DNA from: Oscillospiraceae bacterium
Lineage (GTDB): Bacteria > Bacillota > Clostridia > Oscillospirales > Oscillospiraceae
Reading direction: 5' to 3'
Assembly: GCA_902801295.1 (NCBI GenBank)
Contig: CADCHN010000007.1
Location: 1 to 64,000, forward strand
DNA length: 64,000 nucleotides
The position numbers and the translations under genes were made by a program. Positions 6,907-44,797 of the stretch are shown one piece after another; position 1 is the first letter of the stretch, and each line of letters opens with the position of its first letter. Under the pieces are notes generated by a model. It saw nothing but the letters and a program-made list of their open reading frames with translations, had not been told where the DNA came from and searched no databases.

Positions 6907-6979
6907 ATTTTCAGAGTGAGTTGAATTAAAGTTGAATTATTGAGCCTGAGTAAAATCATAAAAAGCTCAAAAAATACGA

Positions 6980-7013
6980 AAAACCACCGATTTTTCATGA
7001 AATCGGTGGTTTT
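6980..7013. terminator. Terminator hairpin beside the duplicated tRNA tail
   Basis: AAAACCACCGATTT and AAATCGGTGGTTTT form a 14-bp stem with T-rich flanks on both strands. Read leftward it directly follows the 22-bp copy of the tRNA-Arg 3' end at 7015-7036, as a tRNA terminator would. Read rightward it lies about 75 bp past the integrase fragment. Confidence 0.75.
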
Positions 7014-7014
7014 C

Positions 7015-7036
7015 TTTGGTACGGCTGACGGGATTC
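7015..7036 (-). repeat. Duplicate of the tRNA-Arg 3' end (att-like)
   Basis: These 22 bases are identical to 7159-7180, which cover the CCA end, acceptor strand and part of the T arm of tRNA-Arg. The copy is 144 bp downstream of the true gene in the tRNA's direction. Together with the neighbouring integrase fragment it looks like an attachment-site remnant, though the tRNA-Ser locus at 29341 has the same arrangement without an integrase. Confidence 0.8.
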
Positions 7037-7125
7037 CCCGCCTGCGGGCGGGCCGGCTCGCGGCTCTGGCGTGCCACCGGCACGCCATTCACTCCCGCTC
7101 GCTTCGAATCCCTTTGATCCAATTC

Positions 7126-7161
7126 AAAATCCCGGTACCCCTGATGGGGTACCGGGATTTT
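7126..7161 (-). terminator. 16-bp hairpin terminator of tRNA-Arg
   Basis: AAAATCCCGGTACCCC and its exact complement flank a TGAT loop, beginning at the last base of the tRNA CCA end. Read leftward the stem ends in ATTTTG, fitting an intrinsic terminator. Confidence 0.85.
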
Positions 7162-7237
7162 GGTACGGCTGACGGGATTCGAACCCACGACCTCCAGAGT
7201 CGGAGTCTGGCACTCTATCCAGCTGAGCTACAGCCGC
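7161..7237 (-). tRNA. tRNA-Arg (anticodon CCG)
   Basis: A 77-nt cloverleaf on the minus strand with acceptor GCGGCTG/CAGCCGT closed by one G-U pair, D arm GCTCAGCTGGATAGAG, anticodon stem CCAGA/TCTGG around loop CTCCGAC, T arm GGGTTCGAATCCC, discriminator A and an encoded CCA. The anticodon CCG reads CGG arginine codons. Its 3' end is repeated at 7015-7036. Confidence 0.95.
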
Positions 7238-29288: not shown

Positions 29289-29301
29289 TACTATGTGAAT
29301 G

Positions 29302-29341
29302 AAAAAGAGCACCCCACCCTATCGGGTGAGCTACTCTTTTT
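29302..29341. terminator. Terminator hairpin beside the duplicated tRNA-Ser tail
   Basis: AAAAAGAG and CTCTTTTT form the outer stem, with CACCC/GGGTG inside. Read leftward it directly follows the 3'-tail copy at 29341-29362. Confidence 0.8.
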
Positions 29342-29362
29342 GGCGCAGAAGGAGGGATTTGA
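29339..29362 (-). repeat. Duplicate of the tRNA-Ser(GCT) 3' end
   Basis: 24 bp identical to 29488-29511, covering the CCA end, acceptor strand and part of the T arm. The offset is 149 bp, close to the 144 bp at tRNA-Arg. Confidence 0.85.
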
Positions 29363-29451
29363 TCCACCTTGCGGTGCCCGAAAAACCGTTCGGGCTTACG
29401 CTTTTCCTCCGGTTTTTCGACCGCTGCGCTCGGGTTCAAATTCTCTATATC

Positions 29452-29490
29452 AAAGGAAAGACCCCGTCCATCGGACGGGGTCTTTCCTTT
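29452..29490 (-). terminator. 18-bp terminator of tRNA-Ser(GCT)
   Basis: AAAGGAAAGACCCCGTCC with its exact complement and a 3-nt loop, starting at the CCA end of the tRNA. Confidence 0.9.
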
Positions 29491-29583
29491 GGCGCAGAAG
29501 GAGGGATTTGAACCCTCGCGCCGGGTCTAAACCGGCCTACTCCCTTAGCAGGGGAGCCCCTTCGGCCTCTTGGGTACTTCTGC
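29490..29583 (-). tRNA. tRNA-Ser (anticodon GCT)
   Basis: A 94-nt class II tRNA on the minus strand: acceptor GCAGAAG/CTTCTGC, anticodon stem CTCCC/GGGAG with loop CTGCTAA, long variable arm (GGCCGG to CCGGC region), T arm GGGTTCAAATCCC, discriminator G and encoded CCA. GCT reads AGC and AGT serine codons. Its 3' end is repeated at 29339-29362. Confidence 0.95.
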
Positions 29584-29653
29584 AGGCCGAATGTAAAGTC
29601 TTTACATTGCCCGAGTATATTATCACAGCGCCGCGCCAATGTCAAGAGCGGAT

Positions 29654-29932
29654 TTAGGCCAGTGCGGCCTCCAGCACGCGGCGCACCTCGCGCTTCATGT
29701 CCGCATAACTCATGCCGATATGCGCCTCGAAGAGCTTTTTGCCGTCCACATAAAAGGTCGGCACCGCGTAATAGTCATAGCGGTCGGCCAGCTCCGGCTC
29801 GCGGCTCTCCTCAATCTTTGTGATCTGCAGATCCGCCGCCCCCGGCAGCTCCTCCTTCAGTTCCTCCAGCGCCTGATGCGCCTTGTGGCAATAGCCGCAG
29901 TCGTCCAGATAAAACATCAGAATCTCTTTCAT
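29654..29932 (-). CDS. Thioredoxin-like protein with CGYC active site
   Basis: A 92-residue thioredoxin-fold protein. The active site is CGYC (12-15) in FYLDDCGYCHKAHQAL, and the cis-proline region is YYAVPTFYVDGKKLFEA (about 54-70). The short length and CGYC motif resemble glutaredoxin-like thioredoxins of anaerobes; it would reduce disulfides in the cytosol. No signal peptide. A single gene between tRNA-Ser and the divergent PI-PLC-like gene. Confidence 0.88.
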   Translation of the reverse strand: MKEILMFYLDDCGYCHKAHQALEELKEELPGAADLQITKIEESREPELADRYDYYAVPTFYVDGKKLFEAHIGMSYADMKREVRRVLEAALA

Positions 29933-44603: not shown

Positions 44604-44604
44604 C

Positions 44605-44641
44605 GTCGTCGCAAGCTGCATATCGCTTGCGACGACTTTTT
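44605..44641 (+). terminator. Terminator of tRNA-Ser(TGA)
   Basis: GTCGTCGCAAGC and GCTTGCGACGAC around an 8-nt loop, then five T. Confidence 0.92.
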
Positions 44642-44691
44642 ATGCTGCGCATCAAAAGTCATCCCGCGCTCATTCCGCTGCTCCTCCTCTC

Positions 44692-44750
44692 CAAATCGGA
44701 CCCGCTTCGCTGGGCTCCGATTTGGGGTCGGCATCTATCGTGTAAAGATT
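44692..44750. repeat. Dispersed repeat, copy 1
   Basis: A hairpin CCAAATCGGA/TCCGATTTGG (with ACCCGCTTCGCTGGG inside) followed by CGGCATCTATCGTGTAAAGA at 44729-44748. The final ~21 bp recur at 46800-46820 and 47700-47721, and the preceding ~35 bp are recognisable in the second copy. Confidence 0.75.
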
Positions 44751-44751
44751 A

Positions 44752-44797
44752 GCCATAAAGAAAACCGTCGACTTTTGTCGACGGTTTTCTTTATGGC
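44752..44797. repeat. 46-bp perfect palindrome
   Basis: A 21-bp stem starting GCCATAAAGAAAACCGTCGA and a TTTT loop. It resembles a bidirectional terminator but has no gene directly before it on either strand, the tRNA being ended already at 44641. Confidence 0.85.

Follow-up and report, generated by a model that had tools for sequence, protein, structure and literature searches.

Description

The window analysed here is the whole 64,000-nt stretch of Oscillospiraceae contig CADCHN010000007.1, in which tRNA-Ser(GCT) and tRNA-Arg(CCG) are each followed on the same strand by a terminator (T1), a hairpin spacer, a copy of the tRNA's own tail and a second terminator (T2) (Table 1); the third window tRNA, Ser(TGA), has no such unit. 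The coordinates bear out the order of parts that an earlier sequence-only reading had given for tRNA-Ser(GCT), with a tail-copy offset of 149 bp (144 bp at Arg(CCG)), and the T-arm motif in opposite orientation that it had placed in the spacer is the left strand of the closing helix, P1. Folding is moderately better than that of dinucleotide shuffles (z of -2.1 for Ser and -2.5 for Arg), and in the Ser(GCT) window copy the RNA minimum-energy fold favours other local pairing over P1. At about 150 bp the unit is too short for a gene to fit inside, and no integrase was found in or adjoining it, as a site-specific integrative element would have, or among the ten genes scanned around it, in agreement with the earlier reading. 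A 120-aa open frame (window 29295-29657, plus strand) runs antisense through the tRNA, tail copy and spacer; antisense frames of that sort probably yield spurious protein annotations.

Table 1. Features of the two tRNA-tail units in the window
Feature	Position	Strand	Remark
tRNA-Ser(GCT)	29490..29583	-	host of the unit
Terminator T1, Ser(GCT) unit	29452..29489	-	immediately 3' of CCA
P1 left strand, Ser(GCT) unit	29434..29443	-	GAATTTGAAC, reverse complement of the host T-arm
Core, Ser(GCT) unit	29363..29433	-	one hairpin domain fewer than in seven aligned relatives at Ser(GCT)
tRNA-Ser(GCT) tail copy	29341..29362	-	TCAAATCCCTCCTTCTGCGCCA, 22 nt exact, T-loop to CCA; doubles as P1 right strand
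Terminator T2, Ser(GCT) unit	29301..29340	-	
tRNA-Arg(CCG)	7161..7237	-	host of the second unit
Terminator T1, Arg(CCG) unit	7125..7160	-	
Structured unit, Arg(CCG), type A	7030..7112	-	P1-P4; match to model R1, 58.4 bits
tRNA-Arg(CCG) tail copy	7017..7036	-	20 nt exact
Terminator T2, Arg(CCG) unit	6977..7016	-	

Recurrence and structure of the units

The genome of origin (2.0 Mb, 44 contigs) was scanned over 700 nt downstream of 29 tRNA genes, and the full layout (terminator, hairpin spacer, tail copy through CCA, second terminator) was found at six of them at least. Tail matches of 19-28 nt (score 19-25), all ending at CCA, lie behind Thr(GGT), Arg(CCG), Val(CAC), Arg(ACG) and Ser(GCT); in the sixth case, Gln(CTG), the tail copy is broken by an insert of about 66 bp. 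The best tail matches of the remaining tRNAs score 12 or less and mostly reflect the shared T-arm of a neighbouring tRNA.

The Arg(CCG) unit belongs to what we call type A, in which a spacer of 88 nt forms four helices with strong covariation: P1, made of T-arm sequence, P2, hairpin P3 with GCCGG(T/G)GGC, and hairpin P4. The pattern of inverted and direct T-arm halves occurs at 16 sites in 10 of 40 genomes, and one fold is common to most of these. The named relatives with the exact pattern are gut metagenome assemblies, many of them ruminant, labelled Oscillospiraceae, Ruminococcaceae, Clostridia or Candidatus Limivicinus. A covariance model (R1) was built from eleven sequences; its matches, in a search biased toward elements with a paired P1, extend to 70 of 101 congeneric genomes and, within the order, to 77 of 295 genomes and 39 of 149 genera. 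Outside the order, about 400 genomes of the phylum were sampled and two matched, both from one family and with the unit 70 nt behind tRNA-Ser. Across 107 distinct sequences two-sided changes fill 562 cells, as against 154 when shuffled and at most 82 in slid controls, in an alignment that was fitted to R1 and with which a small unfitted alignment agrees; all eight pairs of P1 covary.

Within the genome of origin R1 also matched a type-A unit downstream of tRNA-Pro (contig C16) and two units behind damaged tRNAs. One, on C9 at about 41.8 kb (L037, L161), follows a truncated tRNA-Ser(CGA) of which the 3' half alone is left; a second, different tRNA-Ser(CGA) lies on C26, and the C9 gene was possibly cut by an island bringing its own copy. 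The other, on C19 at about 4362 (L011), comes after a terminator behind a tRNA-Lys with its middle deleted (CGCCCCAGTAGCTCAGGAGGTACTGGAGCACCA).

The Ser(GCT) window unit is not of type A. Seven aligned relatives have the same type at Ser(GCT), with a first hairpin domain that the window copy has lost, and the alignment of this type shows two-sided changes in 20 pairs. Further cores occur at Lys and Arg (L042, L045), Thr and Val, always framed alike, with an inverted T-arm, then hairpins, then the tail copy. The sequence-only reading had proposed that an architecture, and not plain sequence, recurs at unrelated tRNAs, and both parts of this hold: there are further examples in the genome of origin, in congeneric genomes and in the order, and differing cores share one frame, with a common fold and covariation in type A. 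A lack of more examples and of a common fold, which that reading had said would count against it, is clearly not what was found.

Type-A units are located nearly always immediately behind a tRNA or tmRNA gene: 87 start 17-61 nt past a complete tRNA on the same strand, and others stand behind truncated tRNAs or what we read as tmRNA tails. Each consists of a spacer, usually with a terminator, the reverse complement of the host T-arm, the hairpin core and the host tail copy. P1 is the host T-arm itself, its right strand beginning the tail copy and its left strand being the reverse complement. In 82 of the 87 units the left 6-mer of P1 matches the host T-arm, and a perfect left 10-mer is found in 79% against the unit's own host and 12% against other hosts. 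More than 15 tRNA species and tmRNA serve as hosts, among them Ser, Gln, Tyr, Gly, Leu, Val, Arg, Ala, Pro, Glu, Lys and Met tRNAs; where a tRNA-Gln has no encoded CCA, its tail copy likewise has none. An inverted copy that generally reaches on through the acceptor stem was rejected (0.42 for own hosts, 0.39 for other hosts), with single cases at L060, L228 and L273.

Other insertions also occur at tRNA 3' ends. Behind tRNA-Ser(TGA), at window 44604-44755 (plus strand), a separate short insertion (start CGTCGTCGC...GCGACGACTTTTT, end GTGTAAAGATTAGCCA) sits exactly between CCA and terminator; in many relatives the same left end follows a CCA, be it that of a tRNA or of a tail copy, so the insertion would seem to be one more non-autonomous mobile element directed at tRNA 3' ends. 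An insertion of about 860 bp immediately behind tRNA-Pro(TGG) (L157, 4403-5262 on C16 of the genome of origin) has GCACCCC repeats at its end and one gene, a homologue of Vat-like streptogramin A acetyltransferases below the NCBIfam cut-off; no transposase gene was seen in it. Insertions at L156 (G112, contig C90, 490-2340; one such insertion with two genes), L041, L067 and L085 have right ends with repeated GCACCCCCCTAA and ...CCTTTTCCA and stop exactly at the CCA-terminator junction. Integron-like cargo cassettes were rejected, since the genes adjoining two units (L156, L157) lie in these separate insertions, which enter right behind CCA.

Relation to known repeats

Comparison with Rfam, at the gathering threshold for the window and at E values up to 5 for seven loci, matched the units to no known ribozyme or Rfam family, RtT included, and a literature search of incomplete coverage found no description of such units in Firmicutes. 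There is, however, a known element with the same layout, which the sequence-only reading overlooked. The RtT RNA (Rfam RF00391) is said to have been described by Bosl and Kersten in 1991 as 178-bp repeats in the E. coli tyrT operon. Its E. coli annotation is that of an sRNA released by processing of the tyrT transcript, and it begins 43-46 nt past the tRNA. The tRNA-Tyr tail appears in reverse complement as the left strand GGGGAAGGAT and again, copied through CCA, as the unit's end ATCCTTCCCCCACCACCA; the Rfam structure pairs precisely those two strands. Of 5426 complete E. coli genomes, 4584 have matches to RtT, in 1-9 copies, which leaves about 16% without one. The literature search did not find the relation of RtT to the tRNA tail described in these terms, the original 1991 paper lying outside that search.

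RtT and the present units both follow a same-strand tRNA gene within a few tens of nucleotides, have a hairpin core, end in a tRNA tail copy that forms a closing helix with its reverse complement, and occur in tandem. They differ in that the P1 register of RtT lies more in the acceptor, that RtT units have no terminator between them, and that RtT is known from gammaproteobacteria, whereas here the host range covers more than 15 tRNA species as well as tmRNA. The present units fall below the Rfam gathering threshold, and no sequence or covariance-model relation was found; since the RtT model does not score them, they are RtT-like, yet not members by the family's own test, and we judge them an undescribed family.

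REP elements and BIMEs are likewise short, non-autonomous, palindromic intergenic repeats, often arrayed, and a resemblance of rtT to BIMEs has been noted (PMC2965389). Unlike these, the present units are tied to tRNA 3' ends and have host-specific ends, and a Y1 transposase went undetected in the genome of origin and several unit-rich genomes. Integron attC sites also keep structure while sequence varies and have a folded end that resembles a double-stranded target, but the present units have neither integrase nor cassette genes and their target would be the tRNA T-arm, so that the comparison is an analogy only.

Origin of the units

The nearest relatives of a core are usually found at other tRNAs in other genomes. 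In 140 element pairs the cores differ at five sites or fewer and yet the T-arms are different; the left strand of P1 has 0.198 differences per site against 0.052 in the core, about fourfold, and 253 of the 280 P1 helices are fully paired. The units at L093 (Pro) and L095 (Glu), for example, have an identical core between ends GGGATTCGA/TCGAATCCC and GGGACTCGA/TCGAGTCCC, respectively. One genome (G086) has one core at Ser(CGA) and Lys and a near-identical one at Ser(GCT), in each case behind a T1 unrelated to the others, so T1 is local. Two units (L086, L111) carry the left strand of another tRNA type and resemble elements caught in transit.

T1 and T2 nearly match each other in 24% of units, as against 0.9% of random pairs, and their identity often stops at the terminator end; the direct repeat thus spans everything between T-loop and terminator end. 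Units can do without terminators, since within a tRNA operon (L188) they form terminator-free arrays with a spacer of 18-20 nt; tandem arrays have periods of 144-152 bp. Judged as a transposon or MITE, the units have inverted ends that are host-derived and a duplication of tail and terminator in roughly a quarter of cases, and the search gave no intact empty site whose flanks are both conserved: the Ser(GCT) of G092 is without a unit, but its downstream gene differs.

G-U pairs make up 0.9% of pairs in P1, 0.8% in P2b and 0.2% in P3, compared with 4.4% in acceptor stems and 11.8% in T stems of tRNAs at the same loci. P2a (7.4%) and P4, which has one nearly constant G-U pair, are exceptions, so the argument rests on P1, P2b and P3. 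An RNA-selected helix usually tolerates G-U and a DNA palindrome does not, and correction of palindromes through template switching is an established mechanism; the rarity of G-U therefore favours folded DNA or template-switch correction and hints at structure at the DNA level, not the RNA level.

We consider it marginally probable that the units are RtT-like non-coding hairpin repeats that spread among tRNA and tmRNA 3' ends, acquire ends derived from the target and are then amplified in tandem. A core would be copied to a new tRNA 3' end, and the host segment from T-loop to terminator end would be duplicated around it as a long target duplication. The target would then supply the P1 left strand, whether during insertion itself or shortly afterwards through template-switch correction of the imperfect palindrome, and recombination between tail copies could amplify or delete units. 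Neither a Y1 transposase, as in REP/RAYT systems, nor a reverse transcriptase, as in retroelements, was detected in the incomplete assemblies of the genome of origin, G004 (8 units) and G019 (14 units), and action of either in trans was rejected, as they go undetected in unit-rich genomes. Against this spread it counts that neither an enzyme for it nor an intact empty site was found, and that T1 and T2 are alike in just a quarter of units; gene conversion that homogenises the cores of old units could mimic it, and selection instead of templating could be the cause of a perfect P1.

The sequence-only reading had offered either a small mobile unit or a tRNA-like regulatory RNA. That interpretation is partly supported as a whole. 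The mobile unit fits best; the tRNA-like RNA is not supported, as the only tRNA-like fold is the borrowed tail, no promoter has been demonstrated and G-U is rare in P1, P2b and P3. A functional RNA of another kind, such as a stable small RNA like RtT, made when read-through transcripts of the tRNA gene are processed at the tail copy, or else a decoy or processing element, in each case with a fold maintained by selection, seems to us unlikely. Strong covariation, the invariable sense-strand orientation and the terminator-free units within a tRNA operon would suit it, as would E. coli RtT, for which release from the transcripts of tRNA operons is described, and perhaps a role in the stringent response (PMC4986893), but a strong terminator precedes most units and, P2a excepted, the G-U shares of P1 and P3 are unlike those of an RNA-selected helix. 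The units also appear dispensable, given that most tRNAs of the genome of origin have none and that RtT is unmatched in part of the complete E. coli genomes, and the case warns that covariation is without proof of RNA function.

The scarcity of G-U, the tandem arrays with T1 equal to T2 and the dispensable, variable number of units would also follow if nothing moved at all, and the units were very old tandem duplications of tRNA 3' ends in which template-switch correction during replication keeps each insert a perfect palindrome and units undergo gene conversion with one another. We find this quite improbable, since it leaves unexplained the near-identical cores at unrelated tRNAs and in different genomes, the patchy distribution among genera and the very existence of a common core family. 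Tyrosine-recombinase islands likewise have their crossover in the T-loop and leave a copy of the tRNA tail, their usual identity block being T-loop to tRNA end, which is the span of the tail copy, and genuine islands occupy the same tRNAs in relatives. That the units are deletion derivatives or attR relics of such islands is nevertheless very improbable: no integrase lies near the window unit, genuine island right ends (L052, L059, L098) have no hairpin core, the core is independent of the tRNA and tandem units are cargo-free. The exact type-A pattern was also found in no viral contig, which speaks against a phage origin too, weakly, since the pattern is exact.

Returning to target-templated spread, we put forward tentatively, as a doubtful extension, that RtT and these units represent two branches of one general class of minimal bacterial elements, which would travel between tRNA 3' ends in the form of folded single-stranded DNA, with inverted ends templated on each new target by some enzyme or replication route. 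RtT, long a one-operon curiosity of E. coli, would become an example of a class reaching a distant phylum, and the match of unit ends to the host tRNA is a testable rule by which the origin and spread of tRNA-tail repeats become directly testable. For annotation R1 can serve as a covariance model as it stands, and a tail copy downstream of a tRNA gene is not necessarily an island relic.
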